Shown here: positions 1 to 17,705 of the stretch, one piece after another | Layout of the letters: each line of letters starts with the position of its first letter | Position numbering within the stretch: the stretch's first letter is position 1 | Assembly (NCBI RefSeq): GCF_001905145.1 | Contig: NZ_LWLB01000001.1 | Location: forward strand, 558,001-622,000 | Length of the DNA stretch: 64,000 bases | Source: Nocardiopsis sp. TSRI0078 | GTDB lineage: Bacteria; Actinomycetota; Actinomycetes; Streptosporangiales; Streptosporangiaceae | Direction of reading: 5' to 3' | The notes under the pieces: generated by a model | Told to the model about the DNA's origin: nothing | What the model saw: the letters and a program-made list of their open reading frames with translations, nothing else | Database searches by the model: none | Position numbers and translations under genes: made by a program

Positions 1-224
1 ATGCCGAAGGGCAGTTCGACGTCGGGCCGGATCTGGATGATCTGGCCCCGCAGGTGCAGGTAGGGCCGGTAGTTCTGGTCGACGCCGTGGTGCAGGATCG
101 TCACCGCCTCCATGTGCACGGCGATGTCGCAGGGCACAGCGCTCAGGGTCCGCACGTCGGCCTTGTCGTCCCGCACCAGGCGGTGGAACCAGGGGTCGGT
201 GATCCGTAGGGGTGCGATCCTCAT
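1..224 (-). CDS. Partial CDS (N-terminal 74 residues), unknown; last visible gene of the T4SS-like operon
   Basis: The gene starts at the ATG at 224 and runs off the left edge, so only the first 74 residues are visible. The product begins MRIAPLRITDPWFHRLV and carries no signal peptide or membrane segment in the visible part, so it looks cytoplasmic. It lies 39 bp downstream of the two-TM protein gene and on the same strand, so it is very probably co-transcribed with the secretion-like operon. In related loci an FtsK/TraG-type coupling ATPase would be expected nearby, but nothing in these 74 residues proves that. No function is assigned. Confidence 0.6.
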   Translation of the reverse strand, partial: MRIAPLRITDPWFHRLVRDDKADVRTLSAVPCDIAVHMEAVTILHHGVDQNYRPYLHLRGQIIQIRPDVELPFG

Positions 225-263: not shown

Positions 264-758
264 TCAGCGACCGGCGCTGTCGGTGTCGGTGGCCTGGGCG
301 GCGTCCGCCTGCTCGCCCAGCAGCGCGCGACGGGCCCGTTCAGCCAGACGGAGCTGGGCGCGCCACAGCGCGCGCATCGCGACCAGCACCAGGACGAAGA
401 CGAGGCCGATGAGGAAGACCGACGGCGCAAGCCAGTGCGCCAACTGCATCTCCAACGACGAGGTGGGACCGACGCCGGTCCCCGCCGCCACCATGACGAA
501 CAGGTTGGGCACCACGGTCACCGCCGCGAACATCGCCAGGACGTACCCGACCAGACCGGAACCGACCACCAGGCCCGCGCGTACGAGGGCCAGCAGCGAG
601 CGCGCCCCCGACTCCCCCAGACGCGCGCGCAGGCGAGCGCCCAGCGGCGTCGCCGCCCTGTCCGCGTCGGCCTGCTTGGCCTCGGCGGCCCGCTGCGCGG
701 CGCTCTTCCTCTCACGTGGCTTGCGCTTGTTCCTGGACCCGGTGGCGGCGGGGCTCAT
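264..758 (-). CDS. Two-TM membrane protein of the T4SS-like operon
   Basis: 164 residues. The start ATG at 758 is preceded by a strong CAGGAGGACC ribosome site. The N-terminus (about residues 1-60) is very basic and rich in Arg, Lys and Ala; two hydrophobic segments follow at about residues 60-95 (LVVGSGLVGYVLAMFAAV) and 115-135 (PSVFLIGLVFVLVLVAMRAL); the C-terminus is a short charged tail. This is an integral membrane protein, probably with both ends in the cytoplasm. It lies between a VirB8-like gene and a partial downstream gene with short spacers, so it is part of the operon. I do not recognise the family; a small accessory channel subunit is an inference from context only. Confidence 0.75.
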   Translation of the reverse strand: MSPAATGSRNKRKPRERKSAAQRAAEAKQADADRAATPLGARLRARLGESGARSLLALVRAGLVVGSGLVGYVLAMFAAVTVVPNLFVMVAAGTGVGPTSSLEMQLAHWLAPSVFLIGLVFVLVLVAMRALWRAQLRLAERARRALLGEQADAAQATDTDSAGR

Positions 759-797: not shown

Positions 798-1451
798 CTA
801 GGAGTGTTCGGGGACCCCTTCGGTCCAGTGGGCGTCGATCTCGGTGATCGCGCCCTCGGCGTCGGTGGACCACTCCACCGACAGCGCCGCGACCGGGCGC
901 TCCTCCTCGTCATCGGCGTCATAGATCTCGACGAAGGCGAAGTAGGCGTAGTCCACGCCTTCGATGCCGGTCAGCACCGGCTCGAACGGCCCCAGACGCG
1001 CCCGCGAGGCGGCTTCCAGACCGGGGACACCGTCGCGGCCCAGCTCCTCGAACAGGGCCGGGGGTTCCTCGTCACCGGTCCCGACCAGTTCCGCCGACAC
1101 GTCCTCTCCCTCCTCCACCGCCTCGCTCAGTAGGATGCGCATCGCCTCGCCATCGTTCTCCAGACGTTCGACACGGACCGCCGACGAGCGCGCCAGTGCG
1201 TCGGACCAGGCGGCGTGCAACTCGTCCTCGGCTTCCCGGGCCTCGGTCTGGCGTTCTTCCACCAGGGCCGCGACCTCGGCGCGGTCGGCGTCGTGGCCGG
1301 AGGAGGCCGACCACACGGACAGCCCGCCCACGGCCAGCATCAGGGCGGCCACCCCCAGCGGGGTCCAGAACAGGACGCGCCGGATCATCTGGCGGCGGCG
1401 CTCGCGCTCGCGCTCGTAGGCTTCGATCTCGGCCAGGCTCACGTCACTCAC
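798..1451 (-). CDS. Single-pass membrane protein, VirB8/NTF2-like (copy B')
   Basis: 217 residues from the GTG at 1451, which overlaps the stop of the upstream gene by 8 bases and has GAGGA just before it; an upstream in-frame start would read through an implausible Arg/Pro stretch. A basic coiled-coil-like N-terminus (AYERERERRRQM) precedes one TM segment at about residues 25-45, then a long acidic helical region and a small C-terminal alpha+beta domain containing VDYAYFAFVEIYD. The YxYxxxVE pattern is also in the 216-residue protein at 2621-3271, marking the two as paralogues. The TM plus soluble outer-domain layout is that of VirB8/TcpC-type channel scaffolds, but the assignment rests on architecture and context, not on a clear motif. 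Confidence 0.72.
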   Translation of the reverse strand: MSDVSLAEIEAYERERERRRQMIRRVLFWTPLGVAALMLAVGGLSVWSASSGHDADRAEVAALVEERQTEAREAEDELHAAWSDALARSSAVRVERLENDGEAMRILLSEAVEEGEDVSAELVGTGDEEPPALFEELGRDGVPGLEAASRARLGPFEPVLTGIEGVDYAYFAFVEIYDADDEEERPVAALSVEWSTDAEGAITEIDAHWTEGVPEHS

Positions 1452-2490
1452 CGTCCTCGGGCTCGTCGCCCTGCTCGTCCGCGCCATCGCCCGCAGCGGT
1501 GTCACCGTCGTTGGCGGAGTCCTCGTCGGCGCCGTCCTCGGCGGCCTCCCCGCCCTCGGCGGCCTCCTCACCCTCGTCGGCGACGGTACCGAGCACCATG
1601 TCGTCGAACTTGCTGACCAACGGGTCGAACCGACCGCTGAGCCAGGCGACGGTCCGCCCCGTCTCGTCCTCGGTCAGGATCCAGACCATGCGGATCGCCA
1701 GGTCCTGCTCGAAGGCCTGCGCCTCATGGGCGGTCCAGGTGTAACCGGACAGCGGGGCGTCGTCGTCGAGGGTGGGTATCGCCGAGTGCCACTGGCTCAC
1801 GGCGTTGAAGCCGTCGGAGTCACGGGCGCTCGCGGTGAAGTGCGGCGTCAGCGCCCGCTCCAGACCGCCGATGGCGCTCTGGCGCAGCCCTTCGGCGCAG
1901 GCGGTGAGCTCCTCCTCGGTGTAGTCGCGCGTGGTGGTCGGCGGGTCGTCGAGGTAGGGATGGCACTCGTCGCGCCCGCCCGGTCCCGGTGTCTGCTCGG
2001 GCAGGTCGTCGGTGGTGATCGGCCCGGTGTGGTCCAGGTAGGTGTTCTGCGCTTCGGCGAGGTCCTCGCCCACGGTCGTGGCCCGGGCCAGCCAACGCCC
2101 GGCCTCGGTCTGGCTGGGCAGGTCCTCAAGGCCCTGCTCGGCGGCGGTGACGCGCTCCTGGGCGTCGAAGCCGTCCTGAGCCTGTTCCTCCAACCCGGCC
2201 TGGTGGTGGGCATTGATCGAGCCCGCCATGGCGAAGAGCACCAGCGCACCCAGCGTGACCAGGCCGGTGGCCGACCAGTACCCGATACGGACCAGGAGTA
2301 CTCGGCGGCGCCCAGCGGTCGAACGCCGCGGCGCGGGGTCCTCCCCCCGCTGCTCCTGCTGTCGTTCCTGTTCCCGCTGCTCCTCCACCTGCTGCACGGA
2401 AGAGGCCAGGCCCAGGCGTCGGGCCAGTCGGCCGCCCTGGTCCTGGTCCGGGGCCGGGGGTCCGCCAGGGCTGTCCGATTCATCGGCCAC
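1444..2490 (-). CDS. Single-pass membrane protein, VirB8-like (copy A')
   Basis: 348 residues from a GTG at 2490 behind GGAAGGGGGAAG. Order: Pro/Asp-rich and then Gln/Arg/Glu-rich cytoplasmic N-terminus (about 1-70), a TM helix at about 75-95 (YWSATGLVTLGALVLFAMAG), a coiled-coil-like stalk with AEAQNTYLD, a soluble domain ending GRTVAWLSGRFDPLV, and a very acidic Gly/Asp/Glu C-tail of about 60 residues. The AEAQNTY and AWLSGRFD motifs match AELQNTY and AWARGTYD in the 336-residue protein at 3271-4281, so these are diverged paralogues. Probably an extracytoplasmic scaffold of the secretion-like channel. The acidic tail is not seen in the partner copy. Confidence 0.75.
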   Translation of the reverse strand: MADESDSPGGPPAPDQDQGGRLARRLGLASSVQQVEEQREQERQQEQRGEDPAPRRSTAGRRRVLLVRIGYWSATGLVTLGALVLFAMAGSINAHHQAGLEEQAQDGFDAQERVTAAEQGLEDLPSQTEAGRWLARATTVGEDLAEAQNTYLDHTGPITTDDLPEQTPGPGGRDECHPYLDDPPTTTRDYTEEELTACAEGLRQSAIGGLERALTPHFTASARDSDGFNAVSQWHSAIPTLDDDAPLSGYTWTAHEAQAFEQDLAIRMVWILTEDETGRTVAWLSGRFDPLVSKFDDMVLGTVADEGEEAAEGGEAAEDGADEDSANDGDTAAGDGADEQGDEPEDGE

Positions 2491-2620: not shown

Positions 2621-3271
2621 TCAGTAGGGGCCCGAGGTGCGTACCCGGGACGTGGAGGCGTAGCCTTCGAGACCCGAGACACCGCCGTCGCCATCGGTGG
2701 TCAGCAGCACCGTCGCCGTACTGTAGGCGCTGGCCTGCCCGTCGTCGGAGGTGGTCCGCAATTCGACCAGGACCAGGTAGGAGTACTCGGTGCCCTGGAC
2801 CGACAACACCTCGCTGCGGAAGTCGTTCACCCGGGAGTCGAGTCCGAGCAGGTCGATGAGCGCGTACTCGTTGCCCTCCCGGTCGACGTTCATAGGCGCC
2901 TCGGGCAGGAACGCGGTCATGAACGCCGAGTCCTCGTCGAGTCCGTAGACGGTCATCATGGCGCTGCGCGCGTCCTCGTACTCGGCGTGGGTCTCCCACG
3001 TCAGCGCGGTGTCCAGCACGTCGCCGATGAGTTCCTCGTCGGTGTCCAGCCGTGCGGTGTTCGTGCCCTGGACCAGGCTGGCGACCTCGTTCTCCCTCTC
3101 GTCCTGTGCTTCCTCGATCTCGGCCGTTCGCTCCCGGAGCTCCGCGATCTGTCGCCCCTGATCGGCGAGGGCCGCCTCCTGCGCACCGCGTGTGACGGCG
3201 AAGGAGCCTACCGACACCAGGAGCAGCGCCGCCGCGGACAGCGGGAAGGCGTTACGGCTGACGAACCCCAT
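2621..3271 (-). CDS. Single-pass membrane protein, VirB8/NTF2-like (copy B)
   Basis: 216 residues. The ATG at 3271 overlaps the stop of the upstream gene (ATGA), showing translational coupling. An N-terminal hydrophobic segment (residues 9-27, FPLSAAALLLVSVGSFAVT) is an uncleaved anchor or signal; a coiled coil rich in Glu/Arg/Ala follows (about 30-70), then a soluble domain whose C-terminal part carries TEYSYLVLVELRTTSDDG. The last motif matches DYAYFAFVEI in the copy at 798-1451. The pairing with the preceding 336-residue gene is repeated by the next two genes, indicating duplication of a two-gene unit. Role inferred: extracytoplasmic domain of a T4SS-like complex. Confidence 0.75.
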   Translation of the reverse strand: MGFVSRNAFPLSAAALLLVSVGSFAVTRGAQEAALADQGRQIAELRERTAEIEEAQDERENEVASLVQGTNTARLDTDEELIGDVLDTALTWETHAEYEDARSAMMTVYGLDEDSAFMTAFLPEAPMNVDREGNEYALIDLLGLDSRVNDFRSEVLSVQGTEYSYLVLVELRTTSDDGQASAYSTATVLLTTDGDGGVSGLEGYASTSRVRTSGPY

Positions 3272-4281
3272 CAGTCCTGGTCCTCCTCGTCCGGGTCCGC
3301 TCCGCCCACGGGCCGGTCACCGATCGTGGTCTGGCCGAAGTACAGACTGTGGAACGCCTCCATGTCGGCGTCGTAGGTGCCCCGGGCCCAGGCCAACAGG
3401 TGGCCGCTGGACTCGTCTCTGTTGAGCCAGGCCACGCTGACGGCCCCCGGGGACTCGACTCGGGGCGTGGCGGAGACCAGCTCCCAGGAGTTCAGCGACG
3501 CCTGGGCGTACTCACTGCGGTCCTCGTCGGCATAGCGGATGTACCAGGGGGCGAGCACGTCGATCTCGCCCGCGCCGAAGGGCACGTCCGCGCCGGGGAC
3601 GTAGGCGTCCTCGTCCTCGACGATCCGGGCCGACTCGTCGAAGTAGTCGACGAGCTCCGCGCGGTGTTCGGCCAAGGGCGCGAACACCTCGCCCCCGTCC
3701 CCGTCCCCCGACAGCTCCGCGTCGTTGAGGTCGGCCAGGATCTCCTGGTAGGTGTTCTGGAGTTCGGCGACCTCCTCGCCCTTCTCCCTGGCCTGATCCA
3801 GGGCCTCGCCCAGCTGCTCTTCGAGCGCGGCGGCGTCCTCCTCGTCCCACGAGGCGGCCTCCAACTCCCGGATCCCGCCTTCGAGCGAGGCGATCTCCAG
3901 CTCATTGGCCCGGCTCTGGGCCTGCGTGGTGTCGGTGCTGGTGGCGGCCAGGGCCCCGGTGCCGATCGCACCGACCATCAGGGCCCCACCCAGGCTCACC
4001 CGCACGACCTGGCCCGTGTCACGCCGCGGCGCCCCGCCGCTGCGCCGTTCCCGGCGCTCACGCCTGCGCTGCCGCCTGTCGGCGCGGCGCTCGCGCAGCA
4101 TCTCCCGCACGTCGTCGCCGGTCATCCGCCTGCGGTTGGCGCGCTGCTTGGCGTGGTAGGCGTCGAAGCGCTCCATCACCTCCTCGCGGCTCATCTCGCG
4201 CCAGGACCGCTTCGGAGCCCTCTCCCGCGAAGCGCCGCCATCACCGTCGCCGCCGCTGTCCGGCGTGCCCTCGTCGACCAT
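3271..4281 (-). CDS. Single-pass membrane protein, VirB8-like (copy A)
   Basis: 336 residues, started at the ATG at 4281 because AGGAAAGGAG lies just upstream; a longer in-frame extension would be out-of-character sequence. Domains: a highly basic N-terminus (residues 20-90, repeated RRERRERR), one TM helix at about 95-120 (VSLGGALMVGAIGTGALA), an acidic coiled coil to about 190 with AELQNTYQEI, and a soluble domain with SPGAVSVAWLNRDESSGH and LLAWARGTYDADMEAF. The same landmarks occur in the 348-residue protein at 1444-2490. The very basic cytoplasmic side and large outer domain suit a channel assembly factor like VirB8/TcpC, but direct homology is an inference. Confidence 0.75.
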   Translation of the reverse strand: MVDEGTPDSGGDGDGGASRERAPKRSWREMSREEVMERFDAYHAKQRANRRRMTGDDVREMLRERRADRRQRRRERRERRSGGAPRRDTGQVVRVSLGGALMVGAIGTGALAATSTDTTQAQSRANELEIASLEGGIRELEAASWDEEDAAALEEQLGEALDQAREKGEEVAELQNTYQEILADLNDAELSGDGDGGEVFAPLAEHRAELVDYFDESARIVEDEDAYVPGADVPFGAGEIDVLAPWYIRYADEDRSEYAQASLNSWELVSATPRVESPGAVSVAWLNRDESSGHLLAWARGTYDADMEAFHSLYFGQTTIGDRPVGGADPDEEDQD

Positions 4282-4381
4282 CGCCGCGCTCCTTTCCTGC
4301 TGGTCTCCGGGTCCCCGCGTGGGGACGGGCCCTGGCCCGGTGGCACCGGCTCTCTCCGTTGAGCGGTGCACCCGGGCCCGG

Positions 4382-6283
4382 CTACATGAACGGGTCGGGT
4401 CCCACGCTGACGTGGACGTGGTCGATGTGGTTCTGCGTGTTGTCCCCGCGCCCACTGGCGTCCCGGGTGACCCCCTCTTCGTGCCACTCCCCGACCGGAT
4501 CGTTGCCGGCCGCCCACTTGCGGCCGTCCCACAGGATGCCGCTCACGTTGAACTCCTCGGCCCGCGGAATGAGGTAGTTGACGAGCGCCGTCCCGTTGTC
4601 GTACATCTCGTCGCTGGGAACCTCGCCGAGTCCCGCCATCATGTAGTCGATGGCCTGGCCGTTGTTGTGGTTGCTGCCCGGCTCGTTGCGCTGACCACCG
4701 GCCGACAGGAAGAAGCCGCCGAACTCCTCCTGGAGGTGTTCGTGCATGGAGCAGGCGTCCGGGTGCATCGCCCCCAGGGAATCGCAGGGGATCTGCTCAC
4801 CGGCCTGGGTCACCCCGCCGCCGCCTCCGTTGACGTTGGCGGTGCGGCACTCCTGCACCGCCGCGGTGCGACGGTTCTGGTTGGCGACGTCGACCGTGGC
4901 CTCGGCCTGCTCCAGGATGGAGTCGGCCCGGTCCTCGTCGGCTTCCCAGCCGTCCAACTTCGCGAACCACACGCCGGCGTCCTCCACACGCTCGGTCAGC
5001 CGCGGCGCGTTCACGTCGGAGTCCAGTGTCAGGCCTTCCCACTCGACCATCCAGGACTCGGTCGCCTCCTCGACCGAGCCGGAGGGGGCCTCGATGAGCT
5101 CCTGGACGAACCTCACGCGAACGGGGTCGTCCTCGGAGAGCATGAAACTCAACTGGGTCTCCAGCTCCCACCACTTTCCACCGGTGCTCTCGGCGTAGTC
5201 GGTGAGCAACGTGTTACGGCCGTTGGTCCACTGCCCCAGACCGATGCCCACCAGGTCGATGGCGGGCCACTGCGCGGCGTAGTCGGCGTCGATCAACTCG
5301 ACCTGGAAACCGTTCTCCTCCGCCTCCCGCGTGCGCGGGCCGATCTCATAGGGCTCGTCGTAGATCGTCTCGACGGTCGTCGGGTCGATCCGCGATTCGT
5401 GCTCGAAGTTGCCCAACACGCCCGCGATGTTCTCGTCCTGCATGCCCATGCCCGCGAGGATCGAGTACACCTCCTCGGCCATCGCCTCCATGTCCTCGGA
5501 GGTGGCCCCCGACTCGGTGTTGTCGTCGATCTCGCGCACGATCTTCTCGGTCTCGGCACGGCAGCTCTCCGGCATGGCGTCGCGCTGGGCGATGGAGTTG
5601 CCCTGCTGGACGACCGCCGTACCGGCGACCACGGCGACCACGCTCAGGAAGGCCGCGCCGAAGGAGGCAACGGCGCCGGCGACCGCACTGATGGCCCCGC
5701 CCACGGCCCCGGCGATCGCTCCGCCGATGGAGAGGAAGAAGCCCACGACGGTCTTGACGACCTGGAGCACCAGCATCCAGATCAGGCTCCACAGGTTCAT
5801 GAGCAGGGCCAGCAGCGCGGCCAGCATGCCCTTGAGCCAGTTGAGGAACATCAGGAGGACCATGAGCTGGGCACCGACACCGATGGCCGGGACGGCGGCG
5901 ACCGCTCCCGCGCCCTTGGCGACGCCCTTCGTGTCGGACTCGGATCCGCCCTTGGCCGCCTCCGAGGTACCGCCCGCGCCGAGCTTCGGGCCGGCGCCTT
6001 CGTCGGAGTCCTCCCCCGGGTCGGAGTCCCCCGCGGAGTCCTTCCCGGGGTCGACCCCTCCCGCGGGGTCCTTCGCCGGATCGGCCCCTCCCGCGGGCTC
6101 CTTCGCCGGGTCGGCCGCCTGGTCCGGCCCCGCCGCACCGTCGCCCTTGGACTCGGCGCCACCGGCCGTGTCACCCGGGTCGGGTAACCCCTTCCCGGCT
6201 GCCTGACCGACCTGGTCCGACGCGCCAGATCCGGGCCCCGGAGGCTGCATGCCTCCCGCCCCGCCACCAGCGAAACCCGCCAT
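4382..6283 (-). CDS. Membrane-anchored dual cell-wall hydrolase (phage-lysozyme-like domain plus M15-like peptidase domain)
   Basis: 633 residues. Order: Gly/Pro/Asp-rich cytoplasmic region with degenerate tandem units of the ADPAKEPAGG type (about 55-95); several hydrophobic segments (about 125-220, MVLLMFLNWLKGMLAALLAL and following); a lysozyme-like domain (about 250-420) with VYSILAGMGM, IAGVLGNFEHES and GIGLGQWTNGR, typical of Phage_lysozyme2 and Tcp/CwlT-type hydrolases; then a C-terminal domain (about 500-633) with NHNNGQAIDYM and HIDHVHVSV, which supply the His/Asp/His zinc ligands of VanY/ARB_07466-like peptidases. It would open peptidoglycan locally for the secretion-like apparatus, the role of VirB1. 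Having both glycan- and peptide-cutting modules in one anchored protein is notable. Confidence 0.85.
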   Translation of the reverse strand: MAGFAGGGAGGMQPPGPGSGASDQVGQAAGKGLPDPGDTAGGAESKGDGAAGPDQAADPAKEPAGGADPAKDPAGGVDPGKDSAGDSDPGEDSDEGAGPKLGAGGTSEAAKGGSESDTKGVAKGAGAVAAVPAIGVGAQLMVLLMFLNWLKGMLAALLALLMNLWSLIWMLVLQVVKTVVGFFLSIGGAIAGAVGGAISAVAGAVASFGAAFLSVVAVVAGTAVVQQGNSIAQRDAMPESCRAETEKIVREIDDNTESGATSEDMEAMAEEVYSILAGMGMQDENIAGVLGNFEHESRIDPTTVETIYDEPYEIGPRTREAEENGFQVELIDADYAAQWPAIDLVGIGLGQWTNGRNTLLTDYAESTGGKWWELETQLSFMLSEDDPVRVRFVQELIEAPSGSVEEATESWMVEWEGLTLDSDVNAPRLTERVEDAGVWFAKLDGWEADEDRADSILEQAEATVDVANQNRRTAAVQECRTANVNGGGGGVTQAGEQIPCDSLGAMHPDACSMHEHLQEEFGGFFLSAGGQRNEPGSNHNNGQAIDYMMAGLGEVPSDEMYDNGTALVNYLIPRAEEFNVSGILWDGRKWAAGNDPVGEWHEEGVTRDASGRGDNTQNHIDHVHVSVGPDPFM

Positions 6284-7820: not shown

Positions 7821-8156
7821 CTAGGCAGTGGACCCGGGGAACCCCTGGAGGAGGATCATGCCGCCGCCCAGGTCCTCGATGGTGGTCTGGCCGCCCTCGG
7901 CGATGTTGGAGATGAGACTGAACCCGCCGGCCATGAGCGCGCCGCCGACGAAGATCAGGCCGAGGATCTTGATCCAGCTCGTCTGGTCCTGTTGCGACGC
8001 CATCAGCTTCTTGATGAGCAGGACCCCGCCCCAGATGACTCCGACGGTGCCCATGAGCGCGAGGAGGCCACCGCCCGCCGTACCGGCGTATTCGCGAGCG
8101 TTGTCGAAGAAGGAGATGAGGTCCCACTCCGCAGCGGGGAGGTTGGTGATGTTCAT
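7821..8156 (-). CDS. Small two-TM protein, VirB2/TrbC-like (pilin-like subunit)
   Basis: 111 residues; ATG at 8156 with AAGGA 5 bases upstream. Two hydrophobic helices, at about residues 27-48 (GGGLLALMGTVGVIWGGVLL) and 64-85 (ILGLIFVGGALMAGGFSLI), are separated by a short basic loop (KKLMASQQDQTSWIK). Size, two helices and a short polar loop are those of VirB2/TrbC pilins and the small membrane subunits of Gram-positive conjugation systems. There is no long leader peptide, unlike proteobacterial pilins. It is preceded by its own promoter-like sequence and followed by a strong hairpin, which fits a subunit needed in high copy. Confidence 0.75.
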   Translation of the reverse strand: MNITNLPAAEWDLISFFDNAREYAGTAGGGLLALMGTVGVIWGGVLLIKKLMASQQDQTSWIKILGLIFVGGALMAGGFSLISNIAEGGQTTIEDLGGGMILLQGFPGSTA

Positions 8157-8381: not shown

Positions 8382-11300
8382 TCACTTCTTCCTGTTGTTG
8401 CCTCGGCTCGGTTTGCGCGAGTTCCCAGTCCGTTCTCCGGTCGGCTTCGGAGCACCGCCGGATTTACCTCCACTGCCGCCGGTGGGCTTCGAACCGCCGC
8501 CACCGGATTTGCCCCCGGTGCCGCCGCTCACCAGGCCCGCGGTGTTGGACACCGTGCGTCCGGTCTGCTGCATTTGTTGGCCCTGGTTCATACGACGCAC
8601 GTTCTTGGGGTTGGGGTTCTGGTTGTCGAGGGACGACTTTCCGGCCCGTTCCTTGTGCTCGTTCGCCTGGGCGTTCTTCGCCGTGGCCGAACCGCCCTTC
8701 TCCATGGCCTTGCCCCCCGACTCGGCCGCACCGGCGGCGTCACCAGCGAAGCCGCGGCCGACGGCGACCCCGGCGTGGACGCCCGCCTCGACACCGTCCT
8801 TACCGGCGCTGAGCCTGGCCGCGTCGGCCTTCCTGTACTCCTCGCCGGACTGCTGAACGGAAGCGACCCCGGCCTCCAGCGGGTCGGCGTCGTCGCCGAC
8901 CCGCGGGTTGTCCGGGTCGGCGCTCCCCGGAGGCAACGACAGCCCGTCGGTCTCGACCCGTCGGCCGAGCGCGGTCTCCCGCTCGGCGTCCCTGCTCTCG
9001 CCGCCGGGGTCCAGACCCGCACCTGACTGGTCGTCGTCACCGTCACCCGAGGTGAGTTCGCCGGGCCCCTCCAGCGTGCCGTCGGTGTCCACGTCGCCAT
9101 CGACTCTGGTGTCGCTGCTGTTTCCCGCCGAAGTGCTGATCCCCTCGGGACCGCCGCCGTTGGTACCGCCCGCGTTCGGTCCCTTGCCGCCCTTGGGGCC
9201 GCCACCGCCCATCATCCGGTTGCCCATCGCCGCCCCGGCACCGGAGGAGGCCCCGGAGGTGAAGGCCGGCACCTTGCCACCGCCGCCACCACCGGGGGGC
9301 GTGACGGAAGAGTCGGTGAGCTTCTCGACCACCTTGGTGGCGGCCTCCTCCACAGCCTTGACCAGCGTCTTGCGCAGGCGCATCGCCATGACCGTGAAGA
9401 GGATGACCAGGATGATCGACACCAGGGTGACGATCATGGTGATGAGACCTCCGGAGGCCAGGAAGGCGAGCATCGCCGACGCCTCGTCACCTTCGGCGCT
9501 CTGGTTGAGGATCCTCGCGAACGGGGTCTCGATGATGGTCGGGAGGCTCAGCAGGAACTCCTGCACGAACTTGTACAGGGCGATCGTGACCAGGACCTCC
9601 ATGACCAGCGCGATCGAGTAGACGATCACTTTCGCGATACCCGAGATCGCGCCCAGTGTCGCGAACGGGATCGCCGCGATCAGCTGGAAACTCCTGCGGA
9701 TGTTCCCGACCAGCATCGCGAGGGCGTACCCGACGCCGATGGTGATGAACGCGCCCAGCAGCACCGCGGCGTTGAACCAGTACACGGCGCTCATCGTCCC
9801 GGTGCCCACCATCGACACCGAGTTGTGGATGGACCGGGTCGCCTCGCTGGTGGTCCTGCCGGAGGAGTAGGCCGTGTAGGACGTCGGCCCGAAGTCGGTG
9901 TTGAGGTAGTTGTACATCGCCAGCGGTGCGAGGTTGCACCGCCTGGGGCTACCGCTGTCCGTGGCCAGCTCCAGCCCGCAGCTCTCGACCCCGTCACCTG
10001 TGCTGAACCTCCTGCCGTGATCAGAGTCGCTGGCAGTCAGGCCCGTACCGCTCACCGAGATCAAGGGGTTGTCGGGAACATCCACCTCCTTTTTGTCGCT
10101 ACCGACGTTCACGACGGCTTCCGGATCGCCGATGTACTGCTTGAACCACTTGCGCGCGCAAACGTTCTCGCACGCGCGGACCTCGTCCGACAGGGTCGAC
10201 TTGGACTCGGACTCGAACGACGAGGCGGACAGGTGGTCGCTGTCCATGTACCGCTTCAGGAGGCTCGAGACCTGGGCGTAGTGCGTCTCCCTGAAATCCT
10301 CTTCGCCACCGCCCAACGCACCACCCCACGGGGCGTCTCCGTCCAGCGAGCTGGTCGCCTCCGACAGGCCCAGGACCTGATAGTTGATCTGCAGCGCCAG
10401 ACTGCGCACGCTCGCCTGGGATCGTCCGGAGGGAGCGTTCTGGCTGTCGTCCCATTCGACGTACACCTCGCCCCCGTCCGGCACCCGCAGGCGGTGCTGC
10501 ATCGCCCAGCCCTCGAAGTCGACGTACGTGGAGAGCACCACGCGCGTGGAGCCCGAGTTCCCCTCGTCAGTGGCCTCGGCCATGGCGTTGAGCATGCCGG
10601 TGTACATCGAGCCCAGCAGCGGCAGGCCCAGACCGATGAAGAGCATGCGGATGAACAGCTTCTTCAGGCCCGAAGCCTTGTCGAACTGTTTGAACAGCAG
10701 AATGCTCATCAGGAAGACACCGATGAACACCGGGACCATGACCTGCCACGCGAGGTCCTCCAGGAACCCGTACCAGTTGTTGATAAAGGTGAGCAGGCCG
10801 CTGAGGGGTATCCGATCCTCCCCTTCATTGGTCAGGCCGCCGGTCATGCCGTCGGCGAACACCTCGTTGCTGATCGCGTCGTAGAACAACCTGAACGGGT
10901 TCAGCCAGATCAGCGCATCGATGAGGATCGACCACAGGGCGTCGACCCCGGCCGAGACCGTGTACAGGAGGAAGATGATCCCGCCGAAGACCGCGTTGAA
11001 GAACCCCAGCGAAAGCCCTGTGCTGGTGGAGTCCAGCCCCAACCCGTTGAGCGTGGCACCGAACAGCGCGAAGTCCCGCGCACCCTCCACCCCGGAGAGT
11101 CCGGAGCTTCCGCTGCCGACCAGAGTCTCGTAGCCGACGCTGTCCGAGGACTGGGCCACGCGCGAGTTGAGCCATCCCGCGATCGGGTTGTAGTCCTCGT
11201 CGGCGTAGCCGAGCATCGATCCGGCGCTGGCCGGCTGTTCCAGGAGGCCGGTCCATTTCTCCTCGTTGAGGCTGATGTCGCTGCCGGGCTCCTGCGCCGT

Positions 11301-11513
11301 GGAGAACAGGGCCGTCATCGACGACGAGAGCCGGTAGAACGACAGGGAGTCGAGCTCCTCGTCGCTGACTTCGTCGGCGTGCGCGGTGCCCGTCAGCAGC
11401 AGGGCCAGCGGGAACGCGAGCACCAGTGCCCGCAGGACCAGGCGCACGAGGACACCGGGCCTGTCCGAGGACAGGCCCCGCCGCCCACCCGGGGGCGCGC
11501 CTTGCTCCAGCAT
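8382..11513 (-). CDS. Polytopic VirB6-like channel protein with signal peptide and long low-complexity tail
   Basis: 1043 residues from the ATG at 11513, chosen because GGGAG lies 7 bases upstream; a GTG at 11540 overlapping the previous stop (GTGA) is the alternative. A signal peptide (ALVLAFPLALLLTGTAHA) precedes an outer N-terminal region, then several TM groups (for example FFNAVFGGIIFLLYTV, MVPVFIGVFLMSILLF, WFNAAVLLGAFITIGVGYAL, VIVYSIALVMEVLVTIALY, LITMIVTLVSIILVILFTVM). Between them is an outer loop of about 200 residues with several Cys (ACENVCARKW, ESCGLELA) that could form disulfides. The last 270 residues are Gly/Ser/Pro/Asp-rich and cytoplasmic. This is the layout of VirB6/TrbL/TcpH-type inner-membrane channel proteins. 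Confidence 0.82.
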   Translation of the reverse strand: MLEQGAPPGGRRGLSSDRPGVLVRLVLRALVLAFPLALLLTGTAHADEVSDEELDSLSFYRLSSSMTALFSTAQEPGSDISLNEEKWTGLLEQPASAGSMLGYADEDYNPIAGWLNSRVAQSSDSVGYETLVGSGSSGLSGVEGARDFALFGATLNGLGLDSTSTGLSLGFFNAVFGGIIFLLYTVSAGVDALWSILIDALIWLNPFRLFYDAISNEVFADGMTGGLTNEGEDRIPLSGLLTFINNWYGFLEDLAWQVMVPVFIGVFLMSILLFKQFDKASGLKKLFIRMLFIGLGLPLLGSMYTGMLNAMAEATDEGNSGSTRVVLSTYVDFEGWAMQHRLRVPDGGEVYVEWDDSQNAPSGRSQASVRSLALQINYQVLGLSEATSSLDGDAPWGGALGGGEEDFRETHYAQVSSLLKRYMDSDHLSASSFESESKSTLSDEVRACENVCARKWFKQYIGDPEAVVNVGSDKKEVDVPDNPLISVSGTGLTASDSDHGRRFSTGDGVESCGLELATDSGSPRRCNLAPLAMYNYLNTDFGPTSYTAYSSGRTTSEATRSIHNSVSMVGTGTMSAVYWFNAAVLLGAFITIGVGYALAMLVGNIRRSFQLIAAIPFATLGAISGIAKVIVYSIALVMEVLVTIALYKFVQEFLLSLPTIIETPFARILNQSAEGDEASAMLAFLASGGLITMIVTLVSIILVILFTVMAMRLRKTLVKAVEEAATKVVEKLTDSSVTPPGGGGGGKVPAFTSGASSGAGAAMGNRMMGGGGPKGGKGPNAGGTNGGGPEGISTSAGNSSDTRVDGDVDTDGTLEGPGELTSGDGDDDQSGAGLDPGGESRDAERETALGRRVETDGLSLPPGSADPDNPRVGDDADPLEAGVASVQQSGEEYRKADAARLSAGKDGVEAGVHAGVAVGRGFAGDAAGAAESGGKAMEKGGSATAKNAQANEHKERAGKSSLDNQNPNPKNVRRMNQGQQMQQTGRTVSNTAGLVSGGTGGKSGGGGSKPTGGSGGKSGGAPKPTGERTGNSRKPSRGNNRKK

Positions 11514-11536
11514 CCGTTCGCTCCCTCTCACCTCGG

Positions 11537-13903
11537 TCACCGGCCGCGTCCCCTGCGGTCGCCCCGCATGGCCCGGCCCTGGTCCCGACCCTGCTGGCCT
11601 GAGGGGCGGGTCGGCTTCGCCCGCGGCCTCATGCGTTCGGCGCGCAGCCGCGCCTCGGCCCCGTTCTCGGCCACGCGCTGCGCCCGCTCCTCGGCCATGT
11701 CACCCTTGGCCGCCACGACGGCCGAGGACTGCTCCCGTTCGGTCCGCCCCCGTCGCCCCGCCCCGATGAGCTGGGCGCGCCGCTCGGCGCGGGCCGGGTT
11801 GACGCCCAGTGCCAGGTCCAGGTGGAAGACGACGTTGGTGTGTCCCCGTCGCAGGTAGGCGAGATTCTCGCCGCGCGTGGTCACCAGGCGTTCCAGGTCG
11901 GGTGGGATGTCCTGGTGCAGCTGGCGCTGGTACTCGGTGACGGTCGCGTCGCGCATCGGACCCAGGACGGTCCAGTCGGCGGCGTCGAAGCGGTTGAACG
12001 CCGAGTCGGCGAGCATCCGGTCGATGTCGTTGTACAGGTAGGCGACCCGCCCGCCGCGCAGGAACAGGTGCCCGAACTGTTCGCTGAGGTAGTCCTTGAC
12101 GCGGTCGTCGATGTTCTCGGCGCCGTGGATGATCACCGTGTCGCCCAGGCCGAGGTTGTCGACCGCGAAGCCGATGACGTTGACCAGCTGGGCCATCGCC
12201 ACCCCCTTGCCGCGCTTGAGCAGCCGCGAGAAGTCGTAGAGCACGCGGCGGGCGTCGGCCACTCCGTCGATCTCGTCGTTGGTGTGGGTGTTGAACAGGT
12301 CGCCGTTGTTGTCCAACAGGTCCTTGAAGACCAGGCGCAGGATGTTGTAGGCGTGCAGCGCCTCGTCGTCGCGGGCGGTGGAGTTGGCCAGCGCCCGGTA
12401 CTGGGTGTCGAAGTAGGTGACGATGTCCTGGAGGCGCGGCACCTGGGTGTGCGGGACTCCCACCACCCGCAGCCGGTCCCGGTTGTGCTTGGCGTTGCGC
12501 GCCCACATGCCCTTGTCGACGTAGAACTGCGTCAACGTCTCCTTGAGCGAACCGCGGATGATGGAGCGGTCCTGGTCGGTCGTCTCGTAGGCCTGCTCGG
12601 CCATGAGCACGACCTTCTCCAGGTGTGCCGGGAAGATGCCGAGCTCGTCCTCCTGGGATCCGAACATCTCGAACATGTTGATATCGCCCGAGTTCATGTC
12701 CAGCCGAGCGGTGAGCGCGTCCAGGCGCGGGCCCAGGTCGTCCAGGCGGGCCCCGTCCAGGATGATGTGCACGGTCCGGGCGTTGGACAGCAGCGCCGCC
12801 TGGGAGATCTTCGACCCCCACATGTCGGGCACGTGCGCCCGGTCCAGCACCGGGTTGACGCCGTTGTCGGCGACGACCACGTGGTGGTCGTAGGCGTTGA
12901 CGTCGAAGAGCACCGCGGAGTTGTTGACGTCGCCGACCATGTACCCGACGTACTCGCCCGCCGGGTCGTTGAGCCCGTTGGTGACCAGCGAATGGGATCC
13001 GGCGAACTCCACGCTGGTGAAGTGGAAGCCCTTGCCGCGCTTGCGTTCGGTCTTGCCGAAGAGGTTGGTCAGCTCCTGACGCTGCTCGCCGGGGTAGGCG
13101 GCGACCGTGAGGGTGCCGAACCGGTCGATGTACAGGCGCCTGATCCGTTCGACGGCGTCGTCCAGGACCTCCAGGCTGGGGGCCTTGACCAGGAGGCGGT
13201 TGTGCACGTGCAGGTAGCTGGCACCGTCCTGGATCTCACCGGCGACGATCTCCATGTCGTCACTGACCTTGGCGGCCTTGCGCCGCGAGGTCATGGTGCC
13301 GGATTGTGCCTGCTCTCCCTCCTCCAGGCGGTCGAGCTTCTCCGCCGTCTTGATGCGGTCCTCGATCCACTTCTCGCCCATGCGGCGGACCTGTTCGAGC
13401 ACCACCACGGTGACGTCCTCGGGCAGTCCGGTCGGGATCCGGTTGATGCCCCAGAACGCGGCGAAGTCGTCGCGGGCACCGTCGTCGTGGAAGAAGCCGA
13501 GGATGCAGGCGTGGTGGCCGTCGATCCGGAAGTAGTCGCTGTGGAAGACGTAGCGCTCGCGCGGTTTGACCGCGAGCAGGTGCGGGTGGTCCTCGAAGGT
13601 ACCGCCGAGCTGGCGTTCCTTCTTCCGCGCGGCACGGCGCTCGGCGGCGCTCATCCCCTCGGAGGCGTCGTCGTCCTGCTCGGCCTCGGCGGCGGCCTGT
13701 TCGGCCGCCCGCCGCTCCCGCTCCTTCAGGTTGGCGAACGAGACGCCGAAGCCCTCAGAGCTCGCGACGATCTGCCCGTCCTTCCTCGTGTCGGCGGCGG
13801 CCTGCTCCGTCCGACCCGTGGCGTGGGTGGTCCCCAGGAGCGCGCCGGGCAGGTCCCTCCGCGAGGTCCCGGTCGCGCTGCCTCGAAAACGTCTACCGGC
13901 CAT
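11537..13903 (-). CDS. VirB4-like (TraC/TcpF family) protein lacking a recognisable P-loop
   Basis: 788 residues. An N-terminal basic/acidic coiled region (about 1-95) leads into a VirB4-type N-domain (YVFHSDYFRIDGHH, YLHVHNRLLVKA, GTLTVAAYPGEQRQELTNLF), then the part that in VirB4 ATPases begins GxPVxFDxxxxxxHxxVxGxxGxGKS. Here it reads SAVLFDVNAYDHHVVVADNG followed by NPVLDRAHVPDMWGSKIS: the glycines of a Walker A (GxxxxGK[ST]) are absent, and the Walker B place reads VHIILDGARLDD. The later VirB4 helical lid and IIHGAENIDD segment are kept. So the fold looks conserved but ATP hydrolysis is doubtful. Its stop overlaps the upstream possible GTG start of the VirB6-like gene. An ATP-binding role by another loop cannot be excluded. 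Confidence 0.8.
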   Translation of the reverse strand: MAGRRFRGSATGTSRRDLPGALLGTTHATGRTEQAAADTRKDGQIVASSEGFGVSFANLKERERRAAEQAAAEAEQDDDASEGMSAAERRAARKKERQLGGTFEDHPHLLAVKPRERYVFHSDYFRIDGHHACILGFFHDDGARDDFAAFWGINRIPTGLPEDVTVVVLEQVRRMGEKWIEDRIKTAEKLDRLEEGEQAQSGTMTSRRKAAKVSDDMEIVAGEIQDGASYLHVHNRLLVKAPSLEVLDDAVERIRRLYIDRFGTLTVAAYPGEQRQELTNLFGKTERKRGKGFHFTSVEFAGSHSLVTNGLNDPAGEYVGYMVGDVNNSAVLFDVNAYDHHVVVADNGVNPVLDRAHVPDMWGSKISQAALLSNARTVHIILDGARLDDLGPRLDALTARLDMNSGDINMFEMFGSQEDELGIFPAHLEKVVLMAEQAYETTDQDRSIIRGSLKETLTQFYVDKGMWARNAKHNRDRLRVVGVPHTQVPRLQDIVTYFDTQYRALANSTARDDEALHAYNILRLVFKDLLDNNGDLFNTHTNDEIDGVADARRVLYDFSRLLKRGKGVAMAQLVNVIGFAVDNLGLGDTVIIHGAENIDDRVKDYLSEQFGHLFLRGGRVAYLYNDIDRMLADSAFNRFDAADWTVLGPMRDATVTEYQRQLHQDIPPDLERLVTTRGENLAYLRRGHTNVVFHLDLALGVNPARAERRAQLIGAGRRGRTEREQSSAVVAAKGDMAEERAQRVAENGAEARLRAERMRPRAKPTRPSGQQGRDQGRAMRGDRRGRGR

Positions 13904-14017: not shown

Positions 14018-14884
14018 CTACCGCCCGGCGGTGTAGACGGCCCGCAGCATGTCGTTGAGATCCTCGGCGTTGAGCATCGTGGCCTGCTTGATCATGAGGC
14101 TGGAGCCCTCGGCCTCGGCCCGCACCAGGGCGTGCGCCCGGCGCAGCGACTCCAGGTTGTCGCCCTTGATCACCAGGTACTGGTGGATGGAGGTGAACTG
14201 CCCGCCCACGTAGTCCTTGAGGATCGAGTACCGCTCGTCGAGCAACTCGAACAGCTCGGGGTCGCGGACTTCGAGGTCGCGGTTGAGTAGTTCCAGGTTG
14301 CCGAGCTGCCGGTAGACCCTCTGGGGCTCCTTGGTCGTGACCCAGATGAACTCGGCGTTGTTGTCGACCTTGCGCCAGAAGGCGTCGACCCGGTTGAGGA
14401 TCGCCTGCTTGTCCTCGTCGAAGACCAGCACCGAGGCGGATCCGACGACCAGGTAGGCCTGGCCGACGGTGCCGTCCAGCCACTCGATGTAGCCGGTCTC
14501 GTCGATGCCCTTGACGCCCAGCACGGAGTAGAAGCCGCTGGGGTTGGATCCGCGCCGGGTGATGACGCGGCGCGCGGACCGGGGCAGGTACTCCAGGAGC
14601 GCCGGCAGCGACGCGAAGCGCATCTCCTTGGTCTTGGAGTACTGGCCGAAGAAGGCGGTGGTCGCCAGCCACCAGATGACGACCAGGAAGATGAGCCACC
14701 CGTCAGCGCTGGAGACGAACGTCGAGGTGGTGACCCAGAACAGCAACAGGATGGAGGCGGCCCAGAACAGGAGCACCTTCATCGGCAGAGGGCGCATCTG
14801 CCATCCGCCGCCCGCCAGCGCGATCTCGTGGTCCAGGAAGGACCGGTCCAGGCTGGTAGGGATCTTGAAGACGCTCTTGGCCAT
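14018..14884 (-). CDS. Two-TM protein with C-terminal VirB4-N-like domain (TcpE/PrgI-like), first gene of the T4SS-like operon
   Basis: 288 residues from the ATG at 14884, with AGGTGA upstream; a GTG directly before it is also possible. Short basic N-terminus (KIPTSLDRSFLDHEIALAGG), two TM helices at about residues 38-80 (VLLFWAASILLLFWVTTSTF and WLIFLVVIWWLATTAFFGQY), then about 200 soluble residues with RSARRVITRRGSNPSGFYSV and TSIHQYLVIKGDNLESLRR. PrgI/TcpE-type proteins have the same N-terminal two-helix unit and are encoded just before VirB4 as here; the extra C-domain resembles the N-domain of VirB4 proteins (paired short beta strands, then a helix after a VIKG-like strand). Likely recruits the VirB4-like protein to the membrane. 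Confidence 0.75.
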   Translation of the reverse strand: MAKSVFKIPTSLDRSFLDHEIALAGGGWQMRPLPMKVLLFWAASILLLFWVTTSTFVSSADGWLIFLVVIWWLATTAFFGQYSKTKEMRFASLPALLEYLPRSARRVITRRGSNPSGFYSVLGVKGIDETGYIEWLDGTVGQAYLVVGSASVLVFDEDKQAILNRVDAFWRKVDNNAEFIWVTTKEPQRVYRQLGNLELLNRDLEVRDPELFELLDERYSILKDYVGGQFTSIHQYLVIKGDNLESLRRAHALVRAEAEGSSLMIKQATMLNAEDLNDMLRAVYTAGR

Positions 14885-14887
14885 CAC

Positions 14888-15640: not shown

Positions 15641-15732
15641 TGAAATAGTGAAAAATGTTCAGCAGATGGAGCCCGGGCGACACAGATTCAGATGTTATCA
15701 TCACGCCATCCGGCACCCGAGGAGATGGCTTC

Positions 15733-16059
15733 CGTGAACAGCGAGAACAAAGCCGAGCAGCGCAGTTCGCCCCCCGAGGACACCTTCCTATTCCGCCGGA
15801 CATGGACCTGATGGAATACCTGAGCCTGAAAAAGAAGGCCAAATCCTATATTAGGATGGTGATGTATCTATACTCCAACCTGGCCTTCAACGAGGAGAAT
15901 CCCGAACAGAAAGAAAAATACGACAATGAGAGCAATAGGCACTCGAAACTACTGAAGTCCATGAAATGGATGAACATGGAGATGGCGAAACCGATCGTCG
16001 CTGAATACCCAGAACTCATCCGCCAGCTTCGCGAGAAGGAAAAGCGGAGTGATGCATGA
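15733..16059 (+). pseudogene. Antitoxin paralogue, copy 1, with N-terminal frameshift
   Basis: From the GTG at 15733 the reading frame closes after 26 codons, because this copy has one base fewer than copy 2 between the start and the GGACACCTTCCTATTCC block. In the other frame the conserved core MDLMEYLSLKKKAKSYIRMV onward to the C-terminus is intact and could still be translated from the ATG at 15802 (86 residues) or from a start further upstream. The core is about 80% identical by eye to copy 2. Function, if any, would be to neutralise the zeta toxin or to act as a decoy. Whether it is expressed cannot be seen. Confidence 0.6.
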
Positions 16060-16131: not shown

Positions 16132-16467
16132 ATGATTTTCGTGAACGACCGGAACAAGGGTGAGCGGAGCGACTCGACTCCCCGAGGGCACCTTCCTATT
16201 CCGCCGGGCATGGACCTGATGGAATACCTGGAGTTGAAAGAGGACGCAAAATCCTATATTCAGACGGTGGGGTATCTCTACGTGGACCTGGCCTTCCACG
16301 AGGAGAACCCCGAACAGAAAGAAAAGTACGAAAATGAGAGCAAGCGGCACTCGAAACTACTGAAGTCCATGAAATGGATGGAGGTGGAGGTGGCGAAGCC
16401 GATCGTCGCTGAATATCCAGAACTCATCCGCCGGCTTCGCGAAAAGGTAAAGCAGAGTGAATCGTGA
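16132..16467 (+). CDS. Antitoxin of the zeta module (copy 2, intact)
   Basis: 111 residues from ATG 16132, or 108 from GTG 16141; the GAGGAG lies directly against the ATG and 9 bases from the GTG, and the GTGAAC is conserved in copy 1, so GTG is the more likely start. The protein is small, charged and predicted helical: an unstructured N-terminus (NKGERSDSTPRGHLPIPPG), then helices MDLMEYLELKEDAKSYIQ, YLYVDLAFHEENPEQKE and a basic/acidic C-terminus. It overlaps the toxin start by 4 bases (ATGA), the coupling normal for antitoxin-toxin pairs. It fills the place of the epsilon antitoxin although I do not see sequence similarity to epsilon. Confidence 0.75.
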   Translation: MIFVNDRNKGERSDSTPRGHLPIPPGMDLMEYLELKEDAKSYIQTVGYLYVDLAFHEENPEQKEKYENESKRHSKLLKSMKWMEVEVAKPIVAEYPELIRRLREKVKQSES

Positions 16468-17705
16468 GCCACTCCAGTGACCCTCGGGAAGCCGCCTGGA
16501 TTGAGCTGCGCAAGAACCAGCGCATCAGCGACCTCATTCCCGAAGATGTTCCCGCTCGTCCGGACGGTGAGAAACCGCAGTTCATCATCATCACGGGTCA
16601 ACAGGCCGCGGGTAAGACAACGACTCAAGAAGCGGTGATCAACGCCCTCGGGGAACAGTCGGTCGCGAGCTACGACGGCGACGACAACGCCGAGATCCAT
16701 CCACGGTACGCGCAGATCATGCGGGCCAACGGCCTGCAGGGCCAGTCCGCCGTTGAGCGGAGGCTGCCCACCGACCTCCACGAGGAGCTGATCGGCCACC
16801 TTCGCGGTGACATGGGCGGCCCCAAGTACGACGTGGTCGCCAGCCACCCCTTCGGACAGCCGGAGCACGCCGACTACTGGCTCGACGCATTCCGCGATCG
16901 GGGGTATGAGACGACCGCGGTGTTCGTCGCGACCCACGAGTCGAACAGCATGCTCGGTATCGCCCACCGCTACCAGAGGGGCCGTGATAAGCCTTCGAGA
17001 GGGTACGGGCGGTGGGTCGACCCTCGTTTGCACGATGCGTCCTACACGAACAACCCCCACATCGCCCACTACCTGGAATCCACGGGCAAGGTCGACCACA
17101 TCTACGTGACCGACCGCAACGGCGAGGTCCTCTACGAGAACCACCGCACCCCGGACGGGTCCATGCAGAACGACCTCGGCGCCCGCGAGGCGATCACCGA
17201 GGAGCGCAACAGAACCCCCACCCCCCAGGAGATCGCGCGCTTCGACTCCACCGTCGCCTACATGCGCAGCACGGATCCCGCGGTGCGTACCGAACCGGTC
17301 GATGACATGGTCACGATGACCGTCGACTACGCGGAGCAGGATCACCGGGACCTGCGGAGTAAGGGAACCACGGTAGCGGCGCCCACGGCGTCCGGGCCGC
17401 GCAGGAGAATCGGTGAGGCGCTCCAGGAGCAACTCCAGGACACGACCGCGGTGCCGGAACCGGCCAAGACCGGTGCGGTGTCCAGAGCCGCGCGCATCGC
17501 CCAAAGCGGACAGCTCCCCTCCGGCACCTCCAGAGCCGCGCGCATCGCTCAGAATGGGCAGCTCCCCTCCGGCACCTCCAGAGCCGCGCGCATCGCTCAA
17601 CGCGGAACTGTCCCGTCCGGCACACGCTCGCAGAACACTGGCAGCACACCGGAACCGAGCAACAGCTCACCAGACAGCGGAGGTGACCGCGGCATCGAGT
17701 TCTGA
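16464..17705 (+). CDS. Zeta toxin family kinase with C-terminal SRAARIAQ repeat tail
   Basis: 413 residues. The kinase domain (about 1-280) has Walker A GQQAAGKTT at residues 45-53, the zeta-type SYDGDDNAEIHPRY at 69-82 and basic residues in HRYQRGRDKPSRGYGRW. Zeta toxins phosphorylate UDP-N-acetylglucosamine and poison wall synthesis. After about residue 310 comes a non-catalytic tail: three 16-residue repeats (SRAARIAQSGQLPSGT, with Asn/Arg variants) and an Ser/Pro/Gly-rich end SQNTGSTPEPSNSSPDSG. The same tail ends the FolD-like protein at 52859-54039. It is co-translated with the antitoxin gene upstream. Confidence 0.9.
   Translation: MSHSSDPREAAWIELRKNQRISDLIPEDVPARPDGEKPQFIIITGQQAAGKTTTQEAVINALGEQSVASYDGDDNAEIHPRYAQIMRANGLQGQSAVERRLPTDLHEELIGHLRGDMGGPKYDVVASHPFGQPEHADYWLDAFRDRGYETTAVFVATHESNSMLGIAHRYQRGRDKPSRGYGRWVDPRLHDASYTNNPHIAHYLESTGKVDHIYVTDRNGEVLYENHRTPDGSMQNDLGAREAITEERNRTPTPQEIARFDSTVAYMRSTDPAVRTEPVDDMVTMTVDYAEQDHRDLRSKGTTVAAPTASGPRRRIGEALQEQLQDTTAVPEPAKTGAVSRAARIAQSGQLPSGTSRAARIAQNGQLPSGTSRAARIAQRGTVPSGTRSQNTGSTPEPSNSSPDSGGDRGIEF
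17481..17624 (+). repeat. Three tandem 48-bp repeats in the zeta-toxin 3' end
   Basis: Units start at 17481, 17529 and 17577, each TCCAGAGCCGCGCGCATCGC plus 28 bases, encoding SRAARIAQxGxxPSGT. Being an exact multiple of three, the repeats can expand or shrink without breaking the frame. The same unit occurs twice at 53869-53964. Confidence 0.9.

Follow-up and report, generated by a model that had tools for sequence, protein, structure and literature searches.

The locus and its VirB4 homologue

The window analyzed here is a stretch of 64,000 nucleotides of Nocardiopsis sp. TSRI0078 (contig NZ_LWLB01000001.1, positions 558,001 to 622,000). It carries a type IV secretion system (T4SS) operon with a homologue of the ATPase VirB4, named VirB4x here, that lacks both Walker motifs. 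The open reading frame (ORF) is real, spanning 788 amino acids (aa) on the minus strand with a strong third-position GC bias. A sequence-only reading of the window had proposed a VirB4-like motor without a Walker A motif, and this is confirmed: VVADNGVNPVLDRAHVPDMW plus GSKIS stands in its place (residues 343-367), the Walker B motif is gone as well, and VirB4x has no intact P-loop elsewhere in the chain. None of the Pfam and NCBIfam models recognizes the protein. The gene is present in 10 of the 60 genomes searched (own genome counted), all from one genus, of which 27 of 37 members are without it. Its core is under purifying selection: six comparisons covering residues 100-705 gave a ratio of nonsynonymous to synonymous substitution rates (dN/dS) of 0.10-0.15.

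The operon lies on the minus strand and runs from 14887 leftwards past the left end of the window for another ~10 kb, up to the VirD4 gene, which ends near G000:C1:548555 (contig C1 of this genome, G000; base 1 of the window is 558001). The part left of the window encodes a 593-aa double-AAA+ protein, a 762-aa protein and a 1372-aa VirD4-type coupling protein. The core ORFs of the operon are open. Its assignment to the T4SSs, also part of the sequence-only reading, is borne out by the VirD4 coupling protein and the VirB1-like hydrolase (PF18013, E = 1.5e-29) that are encoded with VirB4x. VirB3, VirB6 and VirB8 gave no convincing family match, and the candidates listed in Table 1 were chosen on position and hydrophobic segments.

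Table 1. Features of the T4SS operon and of toxin-like genes in the window (positions are those of the window)
Feature	Position	Strand	Evidence
g-819, conserved gene (347 aa) bordering the relaxase slot; runs on leftwards beyond the window	1..224	-	Homologues beside MobL in relatives
Membrane gene (164 aa)	264..758	-	Homologues in mobile relatives
Gene with one hydrophobic segment (257 aa); true start uncertain	798..1571	-	Weak homologue in pGKT2, E 1.4e-4
Gene with one hydrophobic segment (348 aa)	1444..2490	-	Window-type Nocardiopsis only, in this sample
Gene with N-terminal hydrophobic segment (216 aa); VirB8-like candidate	2621..3271	-	Homologues in mobile relatives
Conserved gene with hydrophobic segment; VirB8-like candidate; start uncertain	3271..4455	-	Homologues in mobile relatives
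Cell-wall hydrolase (Phage_lysozyme2), VirB1-like role	4382..6283	-	PF18013, E 1.5e-29
Conserved T4SS gene (436 aa), N-terminal hydrophobic segment	6354..7664	-	Homologues in mobile relatives
Membrane protein (111 aa), putatively VirB2-like by size and position	7821..8156	-	Homologues; no Pfam match above cut-off
Membrane protein (1052 aa), putatively VirB6-like by position and size	8382..11540	-	Homologue adjoins VirB4x at 35/35 loci (L014-L048)
VirB4x, dead VirB4 homologue (788 aa)	11537..13903	-	hhalign to intact pLS20-type VirB4; VIA to 4ag5
Place of lost Walker B, residues 588-598, DTVIIHGAENI (DE to HG)	12110..12142	-	
Place of lost Walker A, residues 340-370; ends in conserved [ML]WxSKxSQ-like stretch	12794..12886	-	
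Upstream gene (289 aa), hydrophobic N-terminus; putatively VirB3/PrgI-like by position	14018..14887	-	Homologue near VirB4x at 35/35 loci (L014-L048)
Small gene, putatively antitoxin-like by position	15655..16059	+	71% identical to next small gene
Small gene, putatively antitoxin-like by position; overlaps toxin start	16132..16467	+	
Zeta-toxin-like protein with C-terminal repeat tail (tail B)	16464..17705	+	PF06414, E 5.1e-27; tail also on other enzymes
FolD-like gene, then tail B in another frame (broken copy)	52859..54036	+	FolD matches; tail at 53848-54036

Loss of both Walker motifs across one clade

The pattern [GA]xxxxGK[ST] is absent from VirB4x and from its homologues at 36 further loci. 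We aligned 45 such homologues, termed dead here, with four intact relatives, leaving out locus L044, which is split over two frames. The P-loop lysine is found in none of the 45 dead proteins, the Walker B aspartate is replaced by His in 44 and by Tyr in one (motif HG versus YG), and the Walker B glutamate is replaced by Gly in all of them. Fifteen of the 45 contain a looser G....GK string, in no case followed by S or T, and a stretch resembling [ML]WxSKxSQ is present at 33 of 36 loci. As the motif loss extends to all 45 homologues, it is clade-wide and neither a sequencing error nor local decay.

The hosts of the dead homologues include Nocardiopsis, Streptomyces, Arthrobacter, Kribbella, Gordonia and Rhodococcus, and also Staphylococcus, Mammaliicoccus, Enterococcus, Lactococcus, several other actinobacteria and metagenome-assembled genomes (MAGs). 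Streptomyces turgidiscabies Car8 carries the locus twice (L023 and L024), about 218 kb apart on one 717-kb contig. One of the Bacillota plasmids with a dead VirB4 is a linear pELF-type plasmid of E. faecium. When 395 and 391 genomes sampled from the classes of two Bacillota MAGs were scanned, those MAGs alone were matched, which suggests that the Bacillota members reside mainly on plasmids. A scan of viral_contigs yielded one locus.

In public plasmid sequences, 191 records match VirB4x at E 1e-5, both dead and intact kinds among them. Full Walker A and B motifs are kept in four relatives, encoded by pLS20, Lp16H, pBE15_1 and an L. argentoratensis plasmid, and these four match VirB4 or TraC models with scores under the curated cut-offs. 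Twelve matching plasmids were examined, of which nine lack both Walker motifs and three are intact (Lp16H, pBE15_1 and the L. argentoratensis plasmid). On all nine dead-type plasmids, a profile of intact VirB4 detected the dead gene only, or nothing (pELF type); in genomes G062, G066 and G067 it likewise matched only the dead gene. A tree of 25 proteins, rooted at the midpoint only and with long branches flagged, separates the four intact VirB4 proteins from the others at a branch supported 100/100. The dead VirB4 proteins form one clade that probably goes back to a single loss of the ATP site.

VirB4 ancestry and fold

Comparison of the dead set with the intact pLS20-type VirB4 set in hhalign gave a probability of 99.9 (E = 3.3e-37, 464 columns), and the intact set in turn matches the solved VirB4 structure 4ag5 at 3e-29. 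A profile made from 10 close VirB4x sequences gave no match against the PDB. An AlphaFold2 model of residues 84-725, built on a more diverse set of 26 sequences with the ends trimmed, has a mean predicted local distance difference test (pLDDT) score of 66.2; much of the C-terminal domain scores 75-93, with dips to 49. An earlier model from 10 close sequences reached a pLDDT of 37.8 and was not used. Against 4ag5, the retained model gave a Foldseek E of 5.5e-13 and a VIA Z of 29.2 over 349 residues, with a root mean square deviation of 3.4. At the place of the P-loop, it has a strand on one side and a helix on the other, with an unlike loop between them. Structure prediction had been proposed as a check on the VirB4 fold followed in the sequence-only reading, and profile and model agree on it. 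Judged from both, VirB4x is a VirB4 by descent and a predicted pseudo-ATPase.

Candidate motors

A secretion system built around such a protein had been expected to need another motor, perhaps further left, and two candidates are encoded there, namely the Clp-like double-AAA+ protein and the 1372-aa VirD4. The former has two AAA+ modules nearest to ClpA/ClpB (best E 9.8e-77, under the family cut-offs), and both its Walker A and both its Walker B motifs are intact in eight aligned sequences. Its gene has a dN/dS of 0.056 in one comparison. All 46 genomes and plasmids searched (34 and 12, respectively) contain a Clp-like match. A dedicated Clp-like AAA+ protein (E < 1e-97) is present in 33 of the 34 genomes, the exception being MAG G086, in which the match is housekeeping-level only (E = 2.7e-34), and in each of the 12 plasmids. 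As these comprise nine plasmids with a dead and three with an intact VirB4, the Clp-like ATPase may have been in place first.

In a Lumbricidophila MAG, both the Clp-like protein and VirD4 carry intein-like insertions with LAGLIDADG and Hom_end matches (L089:6310-9333 and L089:11793-17090), the one in the Clp-like protein falling inside the first Walker A. In ten other genomes or records, the match is split at residues 329/330, where the second Walker A ends, which suggests inserts there too.

VirD4 matches PF02534 above the cut-off (2.1e-20) and the CD1115 family below it (5.1e-44), and it keeps the P-loop-like LAITRAGKGQTYIEP. Matches to VirD4 were obtained in 30 of the 35 genomes and records searched and in 21 of 21 genomes (fragments only in G085 and G086); the five records without one are the pELF-type plasmid, plasmids W04, W10 and W11, and SLP2. 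The pELF-type plasmid encodes an FtsK-type ATPase (PF01580, 9.9e-35), and one is annotated on each of W10, W11 and SLP2. Between 5650 and 82303 of the pELF-type plasmid, the ORFs of at least 100 aa with a canonical P-loop encode the Clp-like protein, the FtsK-like protein and a 214-aa protein. The coupling ATPase, VirD4 or FtsK-type, might then be the sole relevant motor, with the Clp-like protein as substrate unfoldase or chaperone and VirB4x as an inert scaffold. The P-loop-like sequence kept by VirD4, its match in every one of the 21 genomes and the FtsK-type ATPase in three of the four plasmids without VirD4 agree with this, but the Clp-like protein persists in all 12 plasmids, even where the type of coupling protein changes, and we consider a sole coupling motor possible but on balance doubtful.

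Contig C5 of the same genome holds a second T4SS-like cluster (L068:3370-10612), which encodes an intact VirB4-like ATPase (GAGKS, VVVDEAW) together with another P-loop ATPase. It raises the question whether this VirB4-like protein complements VirB4x or, alternatively, whether VirB4x itself binds or hydrolyses ATP at a non-canonical site, for which the conserved lysine-bearing stretch (MWxSKxSQ) directly after the lost P-loop would be a candidate. We hold both to be improbable: Walker B reads HG in 44 of 45 dead homologues and YG in the other, and the intact profile finds the dead gene alone in the three genomes named above.

Relaxase slot and chromosomal setting

A MobL-type relaxase was detected in 16 of the 21 genomes searched, or 16 of the 17 outside the Nocardiopsis genomes with the window-type T4SS. 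The MobL profile found none in the window-type genomes G000, G060, G062 and G064, nor in MAG G086, an absence that covers the MobL family only, since other relaxase families were not searched genome-wide. In relatives, the MobL gene sits between g-819 and the AAA+ gene, and this slot is without MobL in eight of eight window-type genomes. The slots were first judged by gap length and content, and a direct search was added separately: four MobL proteins compared with 35 window-type stretches gave a best E of 0.19, and all five control stretches were matched. In six window-type genomes the slot is just a gap of roughly 0.2-0.6 kb. In G031 it holds, on the operon strand, a 78-aa gene and the gene of a 543-aa zeta-toxin protein; in G060 the small gene is accompanied by what remains of this toxin.

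Downstream of VirD4, window-type Nocardiopsis have a 602-aa gene (L011:8614-10422), which is not in the three MobL-type VirD4 stretches compared. On its outer sides the cluster is flanked, at both ends, by DNA collinear with the Nocardiopsis sp. NRRL B-16309 chromosome, and the genes adjoining the cluster recur in other window-type species, in rearranged form in N. alkaliphila. The proposal that this is a domesticated conjugation machine is plausible in the light of the eight slots without MobL and the shared chromosomal flanks; the developmental role proposed along with it is unsupported.

Toxin-like genes and shared C-terminal domains

Adjoining its cluster, N. algeriensis encodes an 842-aa protein of which the first 635 residues match, at 72%, the 818-aa protein beside the window's own cluster, and the last 204 residues match, at 66%, a 518-aa protein of NRRL B-16309 with an unrelated N-terminus. 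The same C-terminal domain (C200), which has no Pfam match, follows the zeta toxin in G031 (PF06414, 1.1e-39) and a conflict-type GT4 glycosyltransferase on off-cluster contigs of G009 and G030 (PF20706, 3.3e-47 and 6.2e-48). Different toxin-like modules with a common C-terminal domain, as in the effector system of the X-T4SS discussed below, are therefore present here. C200 occurs in four of the 60 genomes, all four among the seven with a window-type T4SS; with relatedness ignored, the hypergeometric probability of this association is 7e-5 over the 60 genomes and 5e-4 within the genus.

Tail B (Table 1) is carried by the zeta toxin in the window and by a FolD-like enzyme and an unknown protein elsewhere; an unbroken protein of FolD plus tail B is encoded in another Nocardiopsis (L112). 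The 818-aa gene has a 191-aa gene on both sides, in copies that are 96% identical and may have an immunity-like role. An origin of the export domain from the relaxase was considered and is unsupported, as the toxin tails match no ORF of eight MobL-type loci.

In several genomes the toxin cassettes are broken, reduced to a remnant or empty, and this, together with the missing MobL, would fit a decaying remnant of a dead mobile element. The open core ORFs and the low dN/dS of the VirB4x core and the AAA+ gene speak against decay, which we regard as very improbable.

Interpretation

The slot without MobL and the toxin-like genes around the cluster may point to toxin delivery. The reading that we favor, with a probability of about 0.58, is that of a Gram-positive T4SS in which VirB4 is structural and other ATPases are active, and which has been repurposed for toxin delivery in the Nocardiopsis lineage of the window; it draws on sequence comparison and modeling. 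A fuller version, tentative and a little short of even odds, is that this T4SS works without an ATP-hydrolysing VirB4, driven by the Clp-type AAA+ protein plus the coupling protein, and became a toxin-delivery machine by recruiting polymorphic toxins with shared C-terminal export domains, in one genome into the relaxase slot. On either version, VirB4x would act as a structural scaffold and the Clp-like protein as a motor or unfoldase. The machine would export the zeta toxin, the conflict-type GT4 glycosyltransferase and others, with the shared C-terminal domains acting as export signals.

Several observations weigh against toxin delivery by such a machine. The Clp-like AAA+ protein also lies beside an intact VirB4 in all three such plasmids searched and need not be a replacement, and the intact VirB4-like gene on contig C5 could act in trans. 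The genomes are related, which makes the association probabilities of C200 only indicative, and the window's own genome is without C200, having two other tails (B and C) instead. Tail B is found in eight of the 60 genomes, five T4SS-positive and three without this T4SS, and tail C in 12, five T4SS-positive and seven without, with strong matches in two T4SS-less genomes. Furthermore, the MobL profile also misses four dead-type plasmids (W02, W04, W10 and W11; pELF type included), so a missing MobL is compatible with another relaxase.

An unrecognized relaxase and a passive toxin cargo are the most serious alternatives. Combined, they describe a Nocardiopsis cluster that is still conjugative, with a relaxase of a family unseen by the MobL searches and toxins that are ordinary addiction or defence cargo. 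The patchy presence of the cluster (10 of 60 genomes) and the four plasmids missed by the MobL profile agree with such a cluster, and zeta toxins are common on plasmids. The absence of MobL from all eight slots and the flanks shared at both ends with another species argue against it, and C-terminal domains shared by unrelated enzymes are atypical of addiction modules. We therefore consider ongoing conjugation unlikely, and repurposing for toxin delivery remains our preferred reading.

Significance and comparison with known systems

VirB4 is regarded as the signature ATPase of T4SSs. If VirB4x and its relatives, which include a plasmid type published as self-transmissible, are pseudo-ATPases, this would suggest that T4SSs equipped with a Clp-like ATPase can do without ATP hydrolysis by VirB4. 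A dead VirB4 would also help explain unrecognized transfer genes on such plasmids; the typing of the plasmid collection lists 111 of the 191 matching records, which include intact-VirB4 relatives, as non-mobilizable. According to the available text of a 2025 review, Walker A and B are kept in the VirB4 proteins of Gram-positive bacteria, and it has long been asked whether T4SSs of these bacteria evolved into effector translocators (PMC12857230); the toxin link makes this question directly testable in a soil genus. In one open-licence library, the matches listed include no paper on a dead VirB4 clade or on a Clp-type ATPase as T4SS component, and the accessible parts of PMC8955417, PMC3482391 and PMC12102498 contain nothing on point.

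The sequence-only reading had also suggested a chromosomal relative in the cmd cluster of Streptomyces coelicolor. The cmdABCDEF genes (SCO4126-4131) and the SLP2 transfer cluster resemble the operon as actinobacterial membrane clusters with an ATP-binding protein (PMC2782261, in part). However, the CmdB relative of SLP2 keeps its P-loop and shows no profile similarity to the dead VirB4 family (probability 0.2%), so that this link is unsupported, within a comparison of one SLP2 sequence only and not of S. coelicolor itself. According to the consulted part of the same paper, complementation in S. coelicolor is lost when lysine 90 or 404 of CmdB is mutated, with protein instability considered possible by its authors (PMC2782261).

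VirB4x shares the fold of its C-terminal RecA-like domain with VirB4 of Thermoanaerobacter pseudethanolicus (4ag5/4ag6) and TrwK of R388, but differs from both in being without Walker A and B. The pLS20-type systems (pLS20, Lp16H and pBE15_1) have homologous VirB4 and VirD4 proteins, and Lp16H and pBE15_1 also have an annotated lysozyme-type hydrolase and a Clp-like ATPase, for the latter of which pLS20 was not searched; unlike VirB4x, their VirB4 keeps both Walker motifs. Moreover, pLS20 differs in an additional VirB11-type ATPase (L064:9839-11047, T2SSE 2e-22), and L. cremoris pJM4A has an ATPase annotated CpaF/VirB11 (L052:4907-6640). Both are at odds with the statement, in the available part of the 2025 review, that Gram-positive conjugation systems universally lack VirB11 (PMC12857230).

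Mobile relatives with a dead VirB4 are also among the counterparts. Gordonia pGKT2 and Rhodococcus fascians pGS01 share the dead VirB4, the Clp-like AAA+ protein, VirD4, the lysozyme and several small core genes with the window, but bear a MobL relaxase and DNA topoisomerase genes. For the pELF type, represented in our comparison by the related pELF_JHP10 rather than the pELF1 record, pELF1 was judged self-transmissible, with transfer at 10^-3 to 10^-8 per donor (PMC6863802, in the part available). The bacteria-killing X-T4SS of Xanthomonadales is Gram-negative and has the P-loop ATPases VirB4, VirB11 and VirD4; the C-terminal domain here matches nothing in Pfam, and toxin export by the present system is a prediction. 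The two nevertheless resemble each other in their toxins with a shared C-terminal domain, one encoded at the locus and others dispersed (PMC6536674, as far as its accessible text goes).

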